Shown one piece after another: positions 925 through 42,426 of a stretch of 64,000 nucleotides of DNA. The DNA is from an uncultured Clostridia bacterium (lineage in GTDB: Bacteria; Bacillota; Clostridia; Oscillospirales; Ruminococcaceae): assembly GCA_945876435.1 (NCBI GenBank), contig CAMCOD010000008.1:1-64000 (forward strand), read 5' to 3'. The stretch's first letter is position 1. Each line of letters begins with the position of its first letter. The position numbers and the translations under genes were made by a program. A model generated the notes under the pieces. That model saw only the letters and a list, made by a program, of their open reading frames with translations, did not search any database and was not told where the DNA came from.

Positions 925-2553
925 ATGAAAACAACTCCCTGGCAAACCCATCCCCGACCTCAATTGAAACGAAAGGCTTACCGGCTGCTTAACGGAAGCT
1001 GGAAGCTGAACCAGCAGCCGGTGCTGGTACCCTATCCGCCTCAATCCGCCCTGTCCGCCTACAGCCCGGATGTAACGGAACAGCTCACCTATGAATATAC
1101 TTTCCTCTATCCGGAGGATTTTACCCAAACCCGAACCCTGCTCCACTTTGGCGCTGTGGATCAGATTGCCGAAGTTTGGCTCAATGACAAGCATTTGGGC
1201 CGCCATGAGGGAGGCTACCTGCCTTTTACCTTTGATATTACCGATGCTGTCCGCAAGGAGGAAGAAAACCATCTGCGGGTAGAAGTAACGGACAGCTTAG
1301 ACCCCACTTATCCCTACGGCAAACAAAGCAAAAAGCCCGGCGGCATGTGGTATACCCCGGTCAGCGGCATTTGGCAGAGTGTCTGGCTGGAAAATGTTCC
1401 GGAGCTTTACATCAAGTCCATCAAGCTGGATGTGGATCTGCGGGGTGTCGATATCACGGTAGAGGGGATTTCTGATGGCTTTACCGCCGAAACCGACGGA
1501 CAAAGCTACCATTTTGACGGAAATTCCGGTCGAATTGAGATTCAAAATCCCATCCTCTGGACCCCGGACAACCCTCATTTGTATCCTCTGACCATTTCTG
1601 CCGGCGAAGATACGGTGGAAAGTTACTTTGCTCTTCGCACTGTTGCCATCGAGAAAAAGTCCGGCGTTAACCGGATTCTCCTCAATGGTCAACCCATTTT
1701 TCTTCATGGCGTGCTGGACCAGGGCTACTTCCCGGATGGCATCTTCCTGCCGGCTGAGCCGGAGGAATACGACCGGGATATCCTGCGCATGAAAGAACTG
1801 GGGATGAATCTGCTCCGCAAGCATGTAAAAATCGAACCGGAATATTTCTACTGCGCCTGTGACCGGCTGGGAATACTGCTCATGCAGGATATGGTCAACA
1901 GCGGTTCCTATCATTTTATCCGGGACAGCGTGCTGCCCACCTTGGGCTTCCGCAGCCGTCCGGACACATTGGGACCTTCTCTGGACAAACGGAAGGAATT
2001 TTTCCGCCGCCACATGCTGGATACTCTGCGTCACCTGTACAACCATCCCTCGGTCATCGCTTACACCCTCTTTAACGAGGGCTGGGGCCAATTTCAAAGC
2101 GACTCTCTCTATGAACTGGCCAAATCCACCGATCCCAGCCGCCTGATTGACTCCACCTCCGGCTGGTTTGCCCAGAACAACAGCGATTTCGACAGCGAAC
2201 ACATCTACTTCCGCCTGAAAAAGCTGAGTTATCGGGAACAGCCGCTGCTGGTTTCCGAATGCGGCGGCTACACGCTGCCGGTTCCGGGCCATCTTTACAG
2301 CGAAAAACGGCAATATGGCTATGGCGCCTGTGAAAACAGCAAAGAACTCACCGACAAGATTCTGGAAATGTATCAGAAAATGATCTTCCCTGCCATTCAG
2401 GACGGCTGCTGCGGCTGTATTTACACCCAGCTCAGCGATGTGGAGGAGGAGATCAACGGCCTTTACACCTATGACCGACAGGTCTGCAAGGTGGATAAGG
2501 AGCGTCTGCGTATTCTCTCCAACGAGCTTCGCTATATTGTCAATTCTCTTTAA
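925..2553 (+). CDS. Glycoside hydrolase family 2 (beta-galactosidase/beta-glucuronidase type)
   Basis: Predicted 542-residue retaining beta-glycosidase with no signal peptide, so cytoplasmic. The N-terminal sugar-binding jelly roll runs through RLLNGSWKLN and GRHEGGYLPFTFDITD (residues 20-155). A short immunoglobulin-like domain follows to about 245, then the TIM barrel. The acid/base glutamate is in TLFNEGWGQF (N384-E385) and the nucleophile is E445 in LLVSECGGY. It is shorter than LacZ or UidA, resembling the many small clostridial GH2 enzymes of unknown specificity, so galactoside, glucuronide or mannoside are all possible. It stands alone with its own promoter and terminator; no transporter or regulator is next to it, and the Mgl importer is 14 kb away. 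Start supported by AAAGGAAG upstream. Confidence 0.9.
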   Translation: MKTTPWQTHPRPQLKRKAYRLLNGSWKLNQQPVLVPYPPQSALSAYSPDVTEQLTYEYTFLYPEDFTQTRTLLHFGAVDQIAEVWLNDKHLGRHEGGYLPFTFDITDAVRKEEENHLRVEVTDSLDPTYPYGKQSKKPGGMWYTPVSGIWQSVWLENVPELYIKSIKLDVDLRGVDITVEGISDGFTAETDGQSYHFDGNSGRIEIQNPILWTPDNPHLYPLTISAGEDTVESYFALRTVAIEKKSGVNRILLNGQPIFLHGVLDQGYFPDGIFLPAEPEEYDRDILRMKELGMNLLRKHVKIEPEYFYCACDRLGILLMQDMVNSGSYHFIRDSVLPTLGFRSRPDTLGPSLDKRKEFFRRHMLDTLRHLYNHPSVIAYTLFNEGWGQFQSDSLYELAKSTDPSRLIDSTSGWFAQNNSDFDSEHIYFRLKKLSYREQPLLVSECGGYTLPVPGHLYSEKRQYGYGACENSKELTDKILEMYQKMIFPAIQDGCCGCIYTQLSDVEEEINGLYTYDRQVCKVDKERLRILSNELRYIVNSL

Positions 2554-2562
2554 AAAGCCAAA

Positions 2563-2589
2563 AGACCGCTCGGATGAGCGGTTTTTTTG
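2563..2589 (+). terminator. Intrinsic terminator after GH2
   Basis: A 7-bp stem ACCGCTC/GAGCGGT (2565-2571 with 2576-2582), a GGAT loop and a run of T residues follow the stop codon by 11 bases. Confidence 0.85.
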
Positions 2590-2601
2590 CATATGGTAAT
2601 G

Positions 2602-2836
2602 CTATCGATTTTCCTCAAATGCCACAGCTGACTGGTACTTAATCCGGTTCAGCTCCTCTTTCTACCGGATCACCTGTTCCATATCGATCTCGTGGCAGTT
2701 GGCCAGCGCCGAAGCGTAATACATCACATCCAACTTCTTCCGCCAGCTTGAGAAAATAATCCTTGACCAGCTCCGGGTGGTGATCTTTGGCTTTAATATA
2801 AGTCTGCAAGTACTTCACTGTTGTTTTGCCGTCCAT
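2602..2836 (-). pseudogene. Decayed MazG-like nucleotide pyrophosphohydrolase
   Basis: From an ATG at 2836 with a strong GGAGGG ribosome site the frame reads MDGKTTVKYLQTYIKAKDHH and on to LKLAEEVG, typical of the first helix of small MazG-like NTP pyrophosphohydrolases. The reading frame then shifts: the +1 frame continues DVMYYASALANCHEIDMEQVIR, an amber TAG, then KEELNRIKYQSAVAFEENR and TAG. That is the normal C-terminal helix of the family. Joining the two pieces skips the middle of the domain (the part after EEVGE), so an internal deletion, a frameshift and a nonsense codon have all occurred. The intact ancestor would be about 100 residues. The ORF track's longer minus-strand ORF is this gene plus spurious flanks. 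Confidence 0.75.
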
Positions 2837-2963
2837 TGTTTTCCCTCCTGCGACAGCTTCTATCCTGCTGCCCGTTTTCATACTCTTGATTATAGCAGCT
2901 TTTTTCTTAAAATAAATGTACGCAAAAAAGATGCTGAATTTTTTACCATCAAGGAGGAATCCC

Positions 2964-3707
2964 ATGCTTCCCGAAGTCTTAAGCATTGAAACGCCCGCCG
3001 AGGACGTCTGCCTCTATTGGTTTGATGGGCCCAGGCCTTATGTGACCTCAGTGGCTGCCATCTGCCGAAGCGGCGGCTGCCTGGTTTTGGATACATACTG
3101 TGGCTCCTATTATATGGACTGGGTCCGTCAGGATCTGGAACAGCGTTTTCAACCGAAATATTTCTGTGTAATCAACAGCCATCATCACTGGGACCACATC
3201 TGGGGCAACAGTTCTTTCCACGATTGCCTGATTTACAGCACTCCCCTTTGCAAAGAACATATTTTTCAACAATGGACGGAGCAAATGGAGGAAAACGCCG
3301 CCTTTTTCCGGGGAAAAGCAGAAATGTTTCTGCCCAATATTACCGTGGACCAGCCGCTTGAACTGCTGCCCCAGGTCTTCGCTTTTCCGGCTCCCAGCCA
3401 TACCGCGGATTCTTTGGCTCTTTGGGATGAGAAAAACCATTTTTTATTTGCCGGCGATTCGGTAGAAAGTCCTGTGGTACAGCTTTGCTGCTGTAATCTG
3501 AACCAATACCGCAAAACCATCGCTCATTTTGAAGCCCTATCTCCGAAGGCAGTCTTCAGCGGACACAGCATCAACAGCAATCCTGCTATTCTTCGTCAGG
3601 TTTCCTCCTATTTGCAGGCTTTGGCAGAAAAAAGAGAGCTGTATATCGAAGATGAAACCGCCCGGCACACCCATTGGGACAATGAAAAACTGCTTTTCGG
3701 CAGGTAA
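2964..3707 (+). CDS. MBL-fold metallo-hydrolase
   Basis: Predicted 247-residue cytoplasmic metallo-beta-lactamase-superfamily hydrolase binding one or two metal ions. The HxHxDH motif is visible as SHHHWDHIWG, the downstream metal ligands as PSHTADSLALW and LFAGDSVE, and the last histidine as FSGHS. The specific substrate cannot be read from sequence; many such clostridial proteins are annotated only as MBL hydrolases. I chose the ATG at 2964 over the track's 2916 because AAGGAGG lies 7 bases before it and the upstream extension is basic and non-conserved. The decayed MazG-like gene is transcribed divergently upstream. The stop codon overlaps the candidate sigma-K promoter of the next gene. 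Confidence 0.85.
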   Translation: MLPEVLSIETPAEDVCLYWFDGPRPYVTSVAAICRSGGCLVLDTYCGSYYMDWVRQDLEQRFQPKYFCVINSHHHWDHIWGNSSFHDCLIYSTPLCKEHIFQQWTEQMEENAAFFRGKAEMFLPNITVDQPLELLPQVFAFPAPSHTADSLALWDEKNHFLFAGDSVESPVVQLCCCNLNQYRKTIAHFEALSPKAVFSGHSINSNPAILRQVSSYLQALAEKRELYIEDETARHTHWDNEKLLFGR

Positions 3708-3734
3708 CCCGACGAGTCCTTCCTGCATAGGATA
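3707..3734 (+). promoter_or_regulatory. Candidate sigma-K-type (mother-cell) promoter
   Basis: AC at 3707-3708, a 17-base gap and CATAGGATA at 3726-3734 match the sigma-K pattern AC-N16/17-CATANNNTA. It lies about 50 bases before the cysteine-rich BclA-type gene. A short hairpin (GCACG/CGTGC, 3739-3758) begins near the expected start point, and no good sigma-A promoter was seen there. Short motifs can occur by chance, so this is a candidate. Confidence 0.45.
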
Positions 3735-3782
3735 TATGGCACGAAAATGATACCGTGCAATCCATCCTAAGGAGGCCTTGTC

Positions 3783-4385
3783 ATGATTTATCGTCCTTTC
3801 GACAGCGGCTGCGGAATGAGCGACAACCGTTTTGAAAGCTACGGCTCTTCCCAGCCCCGTTCTCATAACTGCTGTTGCTGCTGTCCCTTTTTCTGCTGTC
3901 GTTCCTGCGATCTGTCCTGTACATCAAATCCCTCTGCGCCAAGCGTCAACGCTCTCACTGCAATCAACACCGCCGCTCAGGCCCCTGCGGCCAATGCTGT
4001 TTTGACCTTTGCGGAAAATCCTACCCTGATTGGAAACGCCATCAGCCATAGCCCGGGAAGCGCGGCCATTCTTATCCATACTCCCGGTGTGTATCAGATC
4101 TCCTTCCATGCCACGGTATCCCCCACTGCCGCAACTGAGGTTCCCCACAACAGCGTTCTCCAGCTGCAGCGCAATGGCGTGGATGTGCCCAGTGCGGTGG
4201 CCGCTCATCTGTCTCTCAACACGGCAGATGCCAGCACCATTGGGTTCTCTTACCTTCTTAGCGTGAACACAACGCCAGTAACACTGACTATCGTATCCAA
4301 AATCGCCAACTCTTCTATTGCATCTGCCGTTATCAATGTAACGCGCATCGGTTCGACTTCCTCCGGCTGTACTGCAACCGTGTAA
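3783..4385 (+). CDS. Cysteine-rich BclA-C-domain-like protein, candidate spore surface protein
   Basis: A 200-residue protein in two parts. Residues 1-50 carry a striking cysteine cluster (NCCCCCPFFCCRSCDLSC). Residues about 55-195 are a Thr/Ala/Asn-rich beta domain (AINTAAQAPAANAVLTF, GVYQISFHATVSP, LQLQRNGVDVPSA) like the C-terminal TNF-like jelly roll of BclA and clostridial collagen-like proteins. The Gly-X-X collagen repeat that normally precedes this domain is absent. There is no signal peptide or membrane segment, as expected for a protein put onto the spore from the mother cell. AAGGAGG precedes the ATG. The upstream CATAGGATA box would fit sigma-K control. The domain call is good; the spore role is inference. 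It could also be a vegetative surface or phage-tail-type protein. Confidence 0.65.
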   Translation: MIYRPFDSGCGMSDNRFESYGSSQPRSHNCCCCCPFFCCRSCDLSCTSNPSAPSVNALTAINTAAQAPAANAVLTFAENPTLIGNAISHSPGSAAILIHTPGVYQISFHATVSPTAATEVPHNSVLQLQRNGVDVPSAVAAHLSLNTADASTIGFSYLLSVNTTPVTLTIVSKIANSSIASAVINVTRIGSTSSGCTATV

Positions 4386-4390
4386 AAGCA

Positions 4391-4422
4391 AAAAAGCCTC
4401 TCCAAAAGGAGAGGCTTTTTTT
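4391..4422. terminator. Bidirectional terminator between the Cys-rich gene and aspA
   Basis: A perfect 8-bp stem GCCTCTCC/GGAGAGGC (4396-4403 with 4408-4415) has an AAAA loop. An A-run on the left and a T-run on the right let it serve both convergent genes. Confidence 0.85.
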
Positions 4423-4444
4423 GCATTGTACCAATCGGTACCAA

Positions 4445-5821
4445 TTATACCATGGAGTATGGATCCAGGATCTTTTCGATCTCTTCGTCGCTGTAGATGT
4501 TTTTGCTCTTCAGTACTTCGCGAACGGATTCGCCAGTCTTGATAGCAGTTTTTGCGATCTCAGCGGATACTTTGTAGCCAACGGTTGGGCAGATAGCGGT
4601 GATAACGCCTACAGAACCGTCAACCAGAGCACGGCAGCGGTCAGCGTTAGCGGTAATACCAACAACGCAGTTGTCAACGAAGGTCTCAACAGCGCCGCGG
4701 AGAGCATTGATGGACTCGAAGAGTCTGTGGTAGAGAACTGGTTCTGCGTAGTTCAGTTCCAGCTGGCCAGCTTCAGCAGCCATGGTGATGGAAACATCGT
4801 TGCCCATGATCAGGAAAGCAGCCTGGGACATAACTTCAGGGATAACTGGGTTTACTTTACCTGGCATAATGGAAGAACCATTCTGTTTTGCAGGCAGGTT
4901 GATCTCCTGGAAGCCGCAGCGTGGGCCGGAGGACATCAGACGGAAGTCATTGGCCATTTTGGAGCAGGAAATTGCACAGGTTTTCAGTGCAGCGGATACG
5001 TAAGCGTAGGAGTCCAGGTTCTGGGTACCATCAACCAGGTCTTCTGCTTTTACCAATGGAAGGCCGGTGATTTTAGCCAGCTCAGGAGCCAGAGCTTCTA
5101 CATATTTTGGATTTGCGTTCAGAGCAGTACCTACAGCAGTACCACCCATATTAACAGCGTACATCTCTTCCAGAGCGCGATTCAGGCGAACCAGGTCGCG
5201 TTTGATGGCTTTGCGGTATGCGCCGAATTCAGAACCAAGACGGATCGGAACTGCGTCCTGCATCTGAGTACGACCCATTTTAATAACATCGTGGAATTCT
5301 TCTTCTTTTGCAGCCAGAGCAGCTTCCAGACGTTCTACCTGAGCAATTGCTTTTTTCAGCAGTTTTGCAGCGGTCAGTTTAGCAGCAGATGGGAAAACGT
5401 CGTTGGTAGACTGTGCTCTGTTTACATGGTCGTTAGGATGAACGATGGAGTAATCGCCTTTTTCACCGCCCAGGATTTCGATAGCGCGGTTTGCGATAAC
5501 TTCGTTTGCAGTCATGTTAGCGGTAGTACCTGCGCCGCCCTGAACTGGGTCGCAGAGGAACTGATCATGGAGTTTGCCTTCCAGGATCTCATCGCATGCC
5601 TGGCAAATAGCATCTTTGATTTTTTCATCCAATTCGCCTACCATGCAGTTGCAGATAGCGCAGGCTTTTTTGATTTCAGCCATGGAGTTGATAAATTCCG
5701 GCTGCATTTTCTGTCCGGTGATCTGGAAGTTTTCACAACCTCTCATGGACTGTACGCCATAGTAAGCTTCAACTGGTACTTCTTTGGTGCCGATGGAGTC
5801 GGCTTCAATACGGTATGCCAT
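4445..5821 (-). CDS. aspA: Aspartate ammonia-lyase
   Basis: Aspartase of 458 residues catalysing reversible deamination of L-aspartate to fumarate and ammonia in the cytoplasm. The fumarate lyase signature GSSIMPGKVNP is intact. Conserved blocks GGAGTTANMTANEVIANRA, VHPNDHVNRAQSTND and MGRTQMQDAVPIRLG are typical of aspartase; class II fumarase is the main alternative and is less likely. The ATG at 5821 sits 9 bases after AAAGAGG and is preferred to the upstream TTG at 5830. It is divergent from malic enzyme, and each has its own promoter. The pair links aspartate through fumarate and malate to pyruvate, although no fumarase is visible here. Its own promoter is at 5893-5921. Confidence 0.92.
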   Translation of the reverse strand: MAYRIEADSIGTKEVPVEAYYGVQSMRGCENFQITGQKMQPEFINSMAEIKKACAICNCMVGELDEKIKDAICQACDEILEGKLHDQFLCDPVQGGAGTTANMTANEVIANRAIEILGGEKGDYSIVHPNDHVNRAQSTNDVFPSAAKLTAAKLLKKAIAQVERLEAALAAKEEEFHDVIKMGRTQMQDAVPIRLGSEFGAYRKAIKRDLVRLNRALEEMYAVNMGGTAVGTALNANPKYVEALAPELAKITGLPLVKAEDLVDGTQNLDSYAYVSAALKTCAISCSKMANDFRLMSSGPRCGFQEINLPAKQNGSSIMPGKVNPVIPEVMSQAAFLIMGNDVSITMAAEAGQLELNYAEPVLYHRLFESINALRGAVETFVDNCVVGITANADRCRALVDGSVGVITAICPTVGYKVSAEIAKTAIKTGESVREVLKSKNIYSDEEIEKILDPYSMV

Positions 5822-5892
5822 AATGCTCAACCTCTTTCGTAATATTTGTAAAACTTGTCCAAAAATGACGCAATACTTGCATCGTCACCTTC

Positions 5893-5921
5893 ATTATATC
5901 AACCTCAATCTTAAAATTCAA
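5893..5921 (-). promoter_or_regulatory. Sigma-A promoter of aspA
   Basis: Read on the minus strand: TTGAAT (5916-5921), a 17-base spacer and a perfect TATAAT (5893-5898), about 70 bases before the aspA ATG. Confidence 0.8.
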
Positions 5922-5963
5922 TCCCTTTATGAAACTTATCTTGCAAAAAAACGCATTTTGTCA

Positions 5964-5992
5964 TTGATTTATCGAGGTTTTTGCAATATAAT
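5964..5992 (+). promoter_or_regulatory. Sigma-A promoter of the malic enzyme gene
   Basis: TTGATT (5964-5969), a 17-base spacer and TATAAT (5987-5992) predict a start near 5999, giving a leader of about 105 bases before the ATG at 6104. Confidence 0.8.
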
Positions 5993-5998
5993 GAGGGT

Positions 5999-6093
5999 AG
6001 GACCGGGGATTCCGACTGGGTGGGAACCCTTCTGGACATCGTTCTCTCCGGGTCCGGCGAACCGGCATCGGTTAATTCAAATCACTAAGGAGG
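5999..6093 (+). promoter_or_regulatory. Structured 5' leader of malic enzyme mRNA, candidate cis-regulatory RNA
   Basis: The leader is much more GC-rich than the flanking promoter DNA and can fold. GGACCGGGGA (6000-6009) pairs with TCTCCGGGTCC (6045-6055), enclosing a small hairpin GGGT-GGGA-ACCC (6018-6029). A third hairpin AACCG-GCAT-CGGTT (6060-6073) sits just before AAGGAGG (6087-6093). CCGG at 6054-6057 can alternatively pair with CCGG at 6062-6065, which would break both the first and third stems, so two exclusive folds are possible. I recognise no known riboswitch class. It might only be a stabilising or translational leader. Confidence 0.4.
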
Positions 6094-6103
6094 CTGCATT
6101 ACA

Positions 6104-7333
6104 ATGACTCTGAAAGAACAAGCTCTGAAGCTCCACAAAGACGCTCAGGGTAAAATCGCAATTCAGTGCAAAGTACCTGTAAAAACCAAAGAGGACCTGT
6201 CTCTTGCTTACTCCCCAGGCGTAGCAGAACCATGCATGGAAATCCATCATGATTACAACAAAATTTATGACTACACCGCAAAAGGCAACCTGGTTGCAGT
6301 AGTTACCAACGGTACTGCCGTTCTTGGTCTCGGTGACATCGGCGCAGGCGCTGGTCTTCCTGTTATGGAAGGCAAAGGCATCCTGTTCAAATCCTTCGCC
6401 GGCGTTGACGCTTTCCCAATCTGCCTCAACACCAAGGATCCTGACGATATCATCCGCACCGTTAAGCTGATGGAGCCAACCTTCGGCGGCGTCAACCTGG
6501 AAGACATCAAAGCTCCTGAGTGCTTCTACATCGAAGAAAAACTCAAAGAGATCTGCGATATTCCTGTATTCCATGATGACCAGCACGGCACCGCTATCGT
6601 ATGTGCCGCTGCTACCATCAACGCTCTGAAACTGCTGGGCAAAAAACCGGAAGATCTGAAAGTTGCTGTAAACGGCTGCGGCGCTGCTGCTATCTCCGTT
6701 TCCAAACTGATCATGGCTCTGGGCGTAAAAGACATCACCCTCTGCGACTCCAAGGGCGCTGTTTACAAAGGCCGTGAAGGCATGAGAGAATCTACCGCTG
6801 CAATCGCTGAGATCACCAATCCAAACATGATCAAAGGCGGCCTGGCTGACATCGTAAAAGATGCTGACATGTTCCTGGGTCTCTCCGTTGCTGACGTTCT
6901 GACTCCAGAAATGGTTAAAACCATGAAGAAAGATCCAATCATCTTCGCAATGGCTAACCCAAATCCAGAGATCAAACCAGAACTGGCGAAAGAAGCTGGC
7001 GCTGCCATCATCGGTACTGGCCGCTCCGACTATCCAAACCAGATCAACAACGTTCTGGCCTTCCCAGGTATCTTCCGCGGTGCTCTGGATGTTCATGCCA
7101 GAAAGATCAACGAAGAAATGAAGCTGGCTGCTGCAAAAGCAATCGCTGGCCTGGTTTCCGACGAAGAACTGAATGCGGAATATGTAATTCCTTCTACCTT
7201 CGACAGCCGTGTTGCTCCAGCCGTTGCTGCTAACGTAGCTCGTGTTGCAATCGAAACCGGCGTTGCAAGAAGAACAGACATCACTCCGGAACAGGTTGCT
7301 GAACATACCCGCGAACTGGTTGCAAAACTGTAA
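6104..7333 (+). CDS. NAD(P)-dependent malic enzyme
   Basis: A 409-residue short bacterial malic enzyme that decarboxylates malate to pyruvate and CO2 with reduction of NAD(P). The N-terminal domain carries [15 protein letters not shown] and the catalytic lysine region [16 protein letters not shown]. The metal-binding segment is [10 protein letters not shown], and the Rossmann domain contains [13 protein letters not shown]. Length matches YtsJ/MaeB-type enzymes lacking the phosphotransacetylase-like extension. AAGGAGG lies 10 bases before the ATG. The gene is monocistronic, divergent from aspA, with the promoter and structured leader described separately. Cofactor preference cannot be decided. 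The codon usage is strongly biased, suggesting high expression. Confidence 0.93.
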
Positions 7334-7365
7334 TCCTTTCGTTTTATAATCGGTACACAGATAAC

Positions 7366-7415
7366 AACAGCCCCTGATGGAAATCCATCAGGGGCTGTTC
7401 CGTTGTTTTTTTATT
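7366..7415. terminator. Strong terminator after malic enzyme
   Basis: A 16-bp perfect stem AACAGCCCCTGATGGA/TCCATCAGGGGCTGTT (7366-7381 with 7384-7399) is followed by a T-rich tract. It may also insulate the convergent DUF5655 gene. Confidence 0.88.
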
Positions 7416-7797
7416 TTCTCTTTCTTTCTGAAAAAGCAGCGGCTTTTCTGATCCAAAACAGCAGCTCCTCATCGATCTCCTCCGTTCCGGCGATCATTAC
7501 ATGGTGGGTCCAGCGGTTGGGATACGGCTCCACAGCCGCGTCAATCCGCTGGGACGGCTCCTGATACTCCAGTCCGAAGCTGACCGTCAGATAATGAGCC
7601 GGTCTGTCTTTGGCTTTTCGTACCGGCAAAAAGGAAACAAAGGCAAAATTATGCCGGTTTGCAAAAGAAATCTGGGTTTTGGACACTTTAATCTTTATCT
7701 GACCCAGTTCTTCCAGCACTTTTTTCTCAAATTCTTCATATAAAGCCAGTTCTTCCGGCTTTCCTTCAAAGAAAAACAGCACGTCCGGATTTTGCAT
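7411..7797 (-). CDS. DUF5655-family protein
   Basis: A 128-residue soluble protein. The layout (FFEGKPEELALYEEFEKKVL, then VSKTQISFANRHNFAFVSFLPVRK, HYLTVSFGLEYQEPS and a C-terminal helix ELLFWIRKAAAF) matches the DUF5655 domain, a small fold of unknown activity seen as a stand-alone clostridial protein. No catalytic residues can be assigned. AGGGGGA precedes the ATG. It lies downstream of pyrE on the same strand but is separated from it by a hairpin terminator, so it is probably expressed separately or by readthrough. Confidence 0.65.
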   Translation of the reverse strand: MQNPDVLFFFEGKPEELALYEEFEKKVLEELGQIKIKVSKTQISFANRHNFAFVSFLPVRKAKDRPAHYLTVSFGLEYQEPSQRIDAAVEPYPNRWTHHVMIAGTEEIDEELLFWIRKAAAFSERKRK

Positions 7798-7814
7798 GGA
7801 AATCCCCCTATGAA

Positions 7815-7845
7815 AAAACCACCTCTCACGAGGTGGTTTTTATTG
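7815..7845. terminator. Terminator between pyrE and the DUF5655 gene
   Basis: An 11-bp stem AAAACCACCTC/GAGGTGGTTTT (7815-7825 with 7830-7840) has a TCAC loop. It has U-tract potential on both strands. Confidence 0.8.
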
Positions 7846-7854
7846 TAATATTGT

Positions 7855-8517
7855 TTAGAATACGCAATACTGTTCCATGTACTGTTCCATCAGCTTCAGT
7901 ACATCCGCATATTCCTCTTTACCCTGAAGATATTCGTGGATATCTTTCGCGGTAACGATGGCATGAACGGTAATGCCGAAGTCATCTTTTACTTCCATAA
8001 CAGCCGTCTTACCAGGGGTTTTGCCCACTTCGCAACGGTTTACGGAGATAAACATATCGCTGATACCCACGTCAGCGGCAGCTTTTAGCACCGGAACGGT
8101 TTCACGGACTGCGGTGCCTGCGGTGATCACGTCCTCAATGATGATGACCCGATCCCCATCCTTTGGCTGATAGCCAACCAGAGAACCGCCTTCCCCGTGG
8201 TCTTTGGCTTCCTTGCGGTTAAAGAAATAGGGCTTATTGATGCCATATTCTCTCGCCAGAGCGCCGGCAGCGGAAGTTACCAGCGGGATACCTTTGTAAG
8301 CAGGGCCAAACATGGCATCAAAATTGTCGCCCAAAGTCTCTTTGATGCAGGCGGCATAGAATTCGCCCAGCTTGGAGATCTGTTCACCGGTACGGTAGTT
8401 GCCGGTATTGACAAAATAAGGAGACAGACGGCCGCTTTTGGTCGTAAACTGGCCGAAACGGAGGACATCCGCACTCATCATAAACTCGATAAACTCTTTC
8501 TTGGCATTGGTCAGCAT
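7855..8517 (-). CDS. pyrE: Orotate phosphoribosyltransferase
   Basis: A 220-residue enzyme transferring ribose-5-phosphate from PRPP to orotate to form OMP in de novo pyrimidine synthesis. The PRPP-binding motif is VIIIEDVITAGTA, and the catalytic loop region NRKEAKDHGEGG carries the expected lysine. The ATG at 8517, 9 bases after GAAGGGTG, is a better start than the track's GTG at 8529. No other pyr genes are nearby, so it is separated from the usual pyr operon. The 56 bases upstream hold a perfect 16-bp palindrome, possibly regulatory. Confidence 0.93.
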   Translation of the reverse strand: MLTNAKKEFIEFMMSADVLRFGQFTTKSGRLSPYFVNTGNYRTGEQISKLGEFYAACIKETLGDNFDAMFGPAYKGIPLVTSAAGALAREYGINKPYFFNRKEAKDHGEGGSLVGYQPKDGDRVIIIEDVITAGTAVRETVPVLKAAADVGISDMFISVNRCEVGKTPGKTAVMEVKDDFGITVHAIVTAKDIHEYLQGKEEYADVLKLMEQYMEQYCVF

Positions 8518-41324: not shown

Positions 41325-41780
41325 ATGAAAGCAATCAACAGCATGCGGCTTGTTTTTGATTCCCGTTCCACCAACGAAGCTTTTGCCCGCACAACAGTGG
41401 CAGCCTTTCTCTGTCCGCTAGATCCCACCATGGAGGAACTGATGGATATAAAAACCGCTGTTTCCGAAGCCGTCACCAACGCTATCGTTCACGGATACCG
41501 CAATACCATCGGCAAAGTATCCATCAGCGCCGCCTTGTATGAGGACAACAAGATCGTCATCAAAATCAAAGACAGCGGCTGCGGCATTGAGGATGTGGCA
41601 AAAGCCAGAGAACCTCTGTTTACTACCGCTCCCTCCGAAGAACGGGCCGGTTTGGGCTTTGCCCTGATGGAAAGCCTGATGGACAAGCTGCGGGTCAGCT
41701 CCAAACCGGGAAAAGGTACCACTGTCACCATGGAGCGGACCATCCACTCCCGGGAAAGCGACCATGAGCACCGTCATTGA
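41325..41780 (+). CDS. spoIIAB: Anti-sigma F factor / serine kinase SpoIIAB
   Basis: A 151-residue GHKL-fold kinase that binds and inhibits sigma-F and phosphorylates SpoIIAA. The N box is AVSEAVTNAIVHGY, the G1 box IKDSGCGIEDV and the G2 box EERAGLGFALMESLMD, followed by GKGTTVTM. It lies 33 bases after spoIIAA, and its C terminus overlaps the sigF start by 17 bases, an arrangement that couples synthesis of the factor to its inhibitor. Confidence 0.94.
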   Translation: MKAINSMRLVFDSRSTNEAFARTTVAAFLCPLDPTMEELMDIKTAVSEAVTNAIVHGYRNTIGKVSISAALYEDNKIVIKIKDSGCGIEDVAKAREPLFTTAPSEERAGLGFALMESLMDKLRVSSKPGKGTTVTMERTIHSRESDHEHRH

Positions 41781-42426
41781 TTCCTCCCGGGAGGAGATCA
41801 TCCAGAATAATCTGGGGCTTGTCCACGCCTGCGCCCAACGGTACAAAGGAAAAGGCATTGAATACGATGATCTGTTCCAGGCAGGTTGTGTAGGATTGGT
41901 GAAAGCCACTGACGCCTTTGACCATGAACGTGGAGTTCGCTTCTCCACCTATGCGGTGCCGGTGATTTTGGGCGAGATCCGCCGACTGTTTCGGGATGGC
42001 GGTACGGTAAAAGTGAGCCGTTCGCTGAAAGAACTGTCCCTGAAAGCCAATCGGGAGCGGGATCTGTTCACCCGCACCCACGGACGGGAACCTTCCATCA
42101 ACGAGCTGGCGGAAATTTTGCAGGTGGATTACGGACAGCTTGTGGAGGCCATCTGCGCCTCTGCGCCTCCCCTGTCCCTAACCCATGAAGAGGATAACGC
42201 AGAGTTTGATCTTCCGGTGGATTCTCCGGAAGAAGCTCTATCCGATACCATCGCCCTGAAACAGGTTCTGGAGCTGCTGGACGTCAAAGACCGCCAGTTG
42301 ATCATTCTCCGTTATTTCCAAGGCCAAACCCAAACCAAGGTAGCGCAGGCCCTTGGCATGACCCAGGTGCAGATATCAAGGCGGGAAAAAAAGATTTTAC
42401 AGTCCTTGAAAGAGAAACTGTTATAG
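41764..42426 (+). CDS. sigF: RNA polymerase sigma-F factor (SpoIIAC)
   Basis: A 220-residue forespore-specific sigma factor. Region 2 contains DDLFQAGCVGLVKATDAFD and GVRFSTYAVPVILGEIRR, region 3 EPSINELAEILQVDYGQLV, and region 4 QTKVAQALGMTQVQISRREK. The start overlaps spoIIAB. It ends the operon at a strong terminator. No spoVA genes follow, unlike Bacillus. This gene set is the main evidence that the organism sporulates. Confidence 0.94.
   Translation: MSTVIDSSREEIIQNNLGLVHACAQRYKGKGIEYDDLFQAGCVGLVKATDAFDHERGVRFSTYAVPVILGEIRRLFRDGGTVKVSRSLKELSLKANRERDLFTRTHGREPSINELAEILQVDYGQLVEAICASAPPLSLTHEEDNAEFDLPVDSPEEALSDTIALKQVLELLDVKDRQLIILRYFQGQTQTKVAQALGMTQVQISRREKKILQSLKEKLL

Follow-up and report, generated by a model that had tools for sequence, protein, structure and literature searches.

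A cysteine-tailed, collagen-free BclA-C-like protein as a probable spore-surface protein of an uncultured gut Clostridia bacterium

In the 64,000-nucleotide stretch of DNA analysed here (the window), a gene on the plus strand (positions 3783 to 4385, ATG start) encodes a 200-aa protein in which a dense cluster of cysteines precedes a BclA-C-like domain. When is such a protein made, where does it go and what are its cysteines for? We consider, with a probability of roughly 0.7, that it is a trimer of the spore surface, produced under sigma-K and anchored by disulfides; the analysis shows its sequence, the fold predicted for it, how its promoter is conserved and which sporulation genes the genome carries, and from these we infer localisation, trimerisation and cross-linking.

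Gene neighbourhood and domain organisation

The gene is preceded by a ribosome-binding site (AAGGAGG, 3769 to 3775, 7 nt 5' of the ATG) and lies between an upstream gene encoding an MBL-fold protein and the convergent aspartase gene aspA (PF00206/PF10415). A terminator hairpin is located between the gene and aspA (4388 to 4424, plus strand; folding energy -24.7 kcal/mol, z -6.7) and, the two genes being convergent, probably serves both; the consensus scan missed it because its stem extends into the T run. Two genomes of the same genus harbor orthologues at the same locus, 39% and 35% identical, flanked by the MBL-fold gene and aspA or immediately beside aspA. Both genomes are Oscillospiraceae MAGs, one from water deer cecum and the other from goat rectum, and represent two of the five other species of the genus. 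GGAGG is found 5' of both orthologous starts and comparable hairpins were seen by eye 3' of both genes. Among the other genomes of the genus, G038 and G146 carry a different gene after aspA and the contig of G151 ends at that point. A conserved-stretch search with the three orthologues retrieved only two relatives, both already known.

The initial annotation pointed to a cysteine-dense N terminus, and the count bears this out. Residues 30-34, 38, 39, 42 and 46 are cysteines, i.e. nine in 17 residues (3870 to 3920, plus strand), and the probability of at least nine in 18 residues is about 2e-11 (binomial). By comparison, cysteine amounts to 2.0% of the 12 other proteins of the window (4867 aa), with a maximum of four per 18 residues. 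Only C10 and C196 lie outside the cluster, so that 10 of the 11 cysteines of the protein are found within residues 1-50, a region predicted to be disordered by AlphaFold2 (pLDDT 46-57). This tail matches no family of Pfam or NCBIfam. It is poorly conserved among the three orthologues except for CCCxP, CC and M-I-Y, unlike the jelly-roll domain, which can be aligned throughout. The dense CC and CxxC-like spacing would also suit a metallothionein-like metal site that plays no part in cross-linking. We consider such a site improbable, since the number and spacing of cysteines vary strongly among orthologues and relatives, which fits cross-linking tails and not a defined metal site; the lack of any family match for the tail also argues against it.

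The domain that follows starts at about residue 55 (residues 55-190; 3945 to 4352, plus strand) and no G-X-Y collagen repeat is found in the 200 residues, as the initial annotation had it. Pfam BclA_C matches residues 74-189 with an E-value of 7.4e-5 and 23.1 bits, i.e. below the gathering score of 38; the same family is matched by 18 of 23 relatives, with a best E-value of 8.7e-14. A profile built from the alignment of 23 family members has as its top match the C-terminal domain of F-BclA (9h38, E 6.7e-13), listed as 'FliK' and corresponding to F-BclA-CTD (PMC11952670). It is followed by BclA structures (2e-5), the exosporium protein ExsFA (2e-4), ExsF (1.4e-3), BxpB (4.8e-3) and then C1q/TNF proteins. 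The kinship with BclA that had been proposed is supported by both profile and predicted fold, and the relationship extends to BxpB/ExsFA, weakly so in sequence. AlphaFold2 predicts a confident jelly roll of ten strands over residues 51-190 (pLDDT 90-98). Among solved structures, Foldseek places F-BclA-CTD first (9h38, E 9e-10, TMt 0.83), other leading matches being BclA, BxpB (8d02, TMt 0.79) and ExsFA, with TMt of 0.71-0.72 for 7r1m. A predicted fold without kinship to the TNF-like jelly roll, which would have refuted the initial annotation, was thus looked for by both methods, and the predicted fold is a jelly roll.

The same fold is common to many phage proteins (BFVD search), and a weak PHROG match to a collagen-like minor tail protein (E 1.5e-3) was obtained. 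The protein could be what is left of a phage receptor-binding or tail protein, or else a secreted adhesin, without any role in the spore. We regard this as very improbable: the gene stands alone with its own terminator among metabolic neighbours, no phage gene adjoins it and its place is kept in three species. Moreover, it has a sigma-K-type promoter, and neither a signal peptide nor a sortase motif was seen in the protein by eye. A phage tail protein, the identification that the PHROG and BFVD matches would propose, was rejected on gene context and promoter.

Promoter and sporulation genes

The sequence AC-N17-CATAGGATA noticed by the initial annotation is present exactly upstream of the gene, with AC at 3707-3708 and CATAGGATA at 3726-3734 on the plus strand, 76 nt upstream of the start. 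The region thus displays the AC-N16/17-CATANNNTA arrangement of promoters of the sigma-K regulon. The other part of that claim, the lack of a good sigma-A promoter, agrees with our consensus scan, which found no sigma-70-type site within 3450-4500. Across the window, the N17 pattern is not more common than expected by chance (one seen versus 0.72 expected), and the motif is therefore no evidence by itself; what gives it weight is where it lies and that it is conserved among homologues. Both same-genus orthologues have AC-N17-CATAGAATG, with the same spacing, at -75 and -76. The canonical TA ending is found only in front of the gene of the window, the other two differing from CATANNNTA in its final base. 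Within the bacterial family, 6 of 18 homologous upstream regions contain the strict pattern (0.04 expected). A relaxed pattern, AC-N16-18-CATANNNTR, which was chosen after inspection of the sequences, occurs in 15 of the 18 (0.16 expected from shuffles). Likewise, published -10 boxes of C. difficile such as CATATAAT require only CATANNNT (PMC3789822). The -35 element upstream of the homologues is AC in 15 cases and a sigma-E-type ATA in one, and AC is the most common dinucleotide exactly 17 nt 5' of CATANNNT (10/21). This conservation supports the sigma-K-like promoter of the initial annotation and suggests that expression of the gene probably starts at a late stage of sporulation.

The source genome (1.93 Mb, 99.8% complete) has the genes that such regulation would call upon. 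The spoIIAB and sigF genes are adjacent in the window (41325-42426), spoIVA and sigE are also found in the genome, and sigK is present in two parts about 6.2 kb apart; because of this gene content, we consider the organism to be a spore former. The interrupted sigK (positions 1194-8246 of locus L032, G000:C3:24000-33500) contains a skin-like insert that carries a large serine recombinase, an amino-acid ABC transporter and a MATE exporter. Once the insert is removed, SigK is whole, with 235 aa joined at HIIKK/YYSTYR; it scores 300 bits against NF004471 (cut-off 252) and 291 bits against TIGR02846, i.e. below the cut-off of 298.65. Its hydrophobic N terminus resembles a pro-sequence. Skin elements are an exception in clostridia (PMC5025042). 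In the same genus, the sigK gene of G150 is cut at the identical place with an adjoining recombinase (L062, G150:C18, 1468-1770), and that of G038 is intact (G038:C1:1312777-1313436). Furthermore, all 19 genomes that have a homologue of the 200-aa protein carry spoIVA. This co-occurrence is consistent with a role in the spore but weak as evidence, since 129 of the 149 genomes of the family carry spoIVA.

Relatives in the bacterial family

Relatives of the protein are present in 19 of the 149 family genomes. Every relative with a readable N terminus has 3 to 15 cysteines ahead of the collagen or beta part; collagen repeats are added in most relatives and some are devoid of them. For instance, two proteins of the same genus encoded on the minus strand, L021 (2223-1444) and L022 (2337-1495), combine a BclA-C-like domain with 28 and 33 cysteines, respectively, are collagen-free and have the same sigma-K-type promoter. 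A cysteine-rich N terminus joined to a BclA-C domain is how members of this protein family are generally built in these bacteria.

Neither a second clear copy nor another BclA_C protein was found in the source genome. A 198-aa ORF of this genome (L044, G000:C58, 139-735) with scattered cysteines gave a marginal match to the jelly-roll profile (E 0.16) and has CATAGACTG upstream, without AC at -35; it may be a diverged second jelly-roll protein of the spore surface.

Short N-terminal peptides recur in several of these proteins. The protein of the window starts with MIYRPF (3783 to 3800, plus strand), and MTIYRPND, NIYRPND, MNIYPP and MNIFRN are the corresponding peptides of L008, L009, L010 and L016. 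M-I-Y is invariant in the three orthologues and the MIYRPF-type pattern occurs once in the source genome. These peptides, carried by proteins with and without collagen, resemble the F-ENA/F-BclA hook motif, a resemblance only, and could constitute a shared docking or targeting signal. Besides, a module of the type VGTVTTGEPGTxAxVxNSGTxxNAVLxFxIPxG follows the cysteine-rich tail and precedes the BclA-C domain in L005, L009, L011, L012, L015 and L016. It is sometimes in tandem (L005) and is apparently a spacer that replaces collagen or stands beside it.

A proposed role at the spore surface

The mechanism that we propose is the following. Late in sporulation, sigma-K RNA polymerase would transcribe the gene, and the protein, having no visible signal peptide, would be made in the mother-cell cytoplasm that surrounds the forespore. 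Its destination would be the spore surface, either the outer coat or the exosporium. There, the C-terminal C1q/TNF-like jelly roll would trimerise as do BclA-C, F-BclA-CTD and BxpB, and the flexible tail would form disulfides with a cysteine-rich spore layer, between trimers, or both. With such bonds, the trimeric heads would be held on the surface itself, with no collagen stalk in between. The overall interpretation of the initial annotation is supported in part, by the predicted jelly-roll fold, the conserved sigma-K-type promoter, the sporulating genome with its sigK and the relationship with BclA and BxpB. Its framing in terms of CdeC/CdeM calls for a change, the combination of domains being common to the family and BxpB/ExsFA being closer in architecture. 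CdeC, CdeM and CsxA, compared by description, share a high cysteine content and belong to cross-linked spore layers; we know of no jelly-roll domain in any of them.

The closest architecture is that of BxpB/ExsFA and ExsFB of the Bacillus cereus group (8d02, 7r1m, 9h3d): a collagen-free jelly roll of similar size, matched in fold, behind a short disordered N-terminal tail that holds cysteines. These are spore-surface proteins, a location that we infer for the 200-aa protein. BxpB is a collagen-free jelly-roll trimer with only two cysteines, both in a disordered tail of 19 residues and proposed to bond to the cysteine-rich ExsY (PMC10470788), versus ten tail cysteines here. This shared layout, the presence of BxpB and ExsFA among the best fold matches and the profile E-values for ExsF and BxpB (1.4e-3 to 4.8e-3) would also agree with a basal-layer organiser. 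In that case, trimers placed at the three-fold positions of a cysteine-rich lattice would offer other proteins a docking platform instead of being displayed outermost. We find this role unlikely, though worth keeping in mind: kinship to ExsF and BxpB is seen at the profile level only, F-BclA-CTD and BclA being nearer in sequence, and the source genome has no second BclA_C protein to dock, except for the marginal L044.

F-BclA, the tip fibrillum of the F-ENA of Bacillus thuringiensis, provides the closest solved C-terminal domain (9h38) in both sequence and fold. Furthermore, the hydrophobic N-terminal peptide MIYRPF is similar to its hook motif (M-P-hydrophobic-hydrophobic-polar-P-aromatic), and the CC motif of the tail is found in L-BclA and AGE80398.1, in which a cysteine-rich N terminus precedes collagen and C1q (PMC11952670). 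These likenesses raise the question of whether the protein is a tip or decorator of a spore appendage, its N terminus docking on a fibre by the hook motif, as in F-BclA, or by the CC motif, as in L-BclA. However, F-BclA has about 700 collagen residues and docks on DUF4183 fibres, and L-BclA and AGE80398.1, likewise with a stalk of collagen, serve ENA fibres or are believed to do so. The 200-aa protein has no such stalk, and the source genome has no match at E<=1 to DUF4183 (PF13799, the F-ENA subunit) or to Enas (PF13157, the S/L-ENA subunit). Since neither protein is present, a tip role in a known appendage is improbable; membership of F-ENA is ruled out by the lack of DUF4183, and an S/L-ENA tip protein is unlikely in a genome without an Enas protein. 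By analogy with these fibres, there is a slight chance that the protein is itself the subunit of a fibre or lattice, with MIYRPF hooked, as in F-ENA, into the groove of the neighbouring jelly-roll trimer and the joint stapled, as in S-ENA, by disulfides of the cysteine cluster. If true, this would be a cysteine-locked polymer in which the BclA-C fold takes the place of DUF4183 or Enas. A literature search on cerebellin, an animal cysteine-linked C1q protein, as an analogy yielded nothing usable.

Returning to the surface trimer that we favour, the protein has a BclA-C-like domain, matching in predicted fold but with a Pfam score below the gathering score, that resembles the BclA_C domain of Bacillus anthracis BclA and Clostridioides difficile BclA1-3. 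For the bclA1-3 genes, control by sigma-K is published (PMC3789822), whereas for the gene of the window it is deduced from the promoter. The protein is not filed as BclA because it has no collagen region and no exosporium leader of the TIGR03720 type, no NCBIfam model (TIGR03720 included) matching it at E<=1. It is best called a spore-surface protein of the BclA-C/ExsF superfamily, of a cysteine-tailed and collagen-free type, and can be viewed as a compact variant of an already known kind of spore-surface protein.

Spores carry gut Oscillospiraceae between hosts and, to our knowledge, the surfaces of these spores are little studied. The cysteine-tailed BclA-C family, whose members may or may not have a collagen stalk and whose sigma-K-type promoters are conserved, provides specific candidates for spore-surface proteins in these bacteria. 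It also suggests that proteins of this group may commonly be anchored by tail cysteines and not by an exosporium leader.
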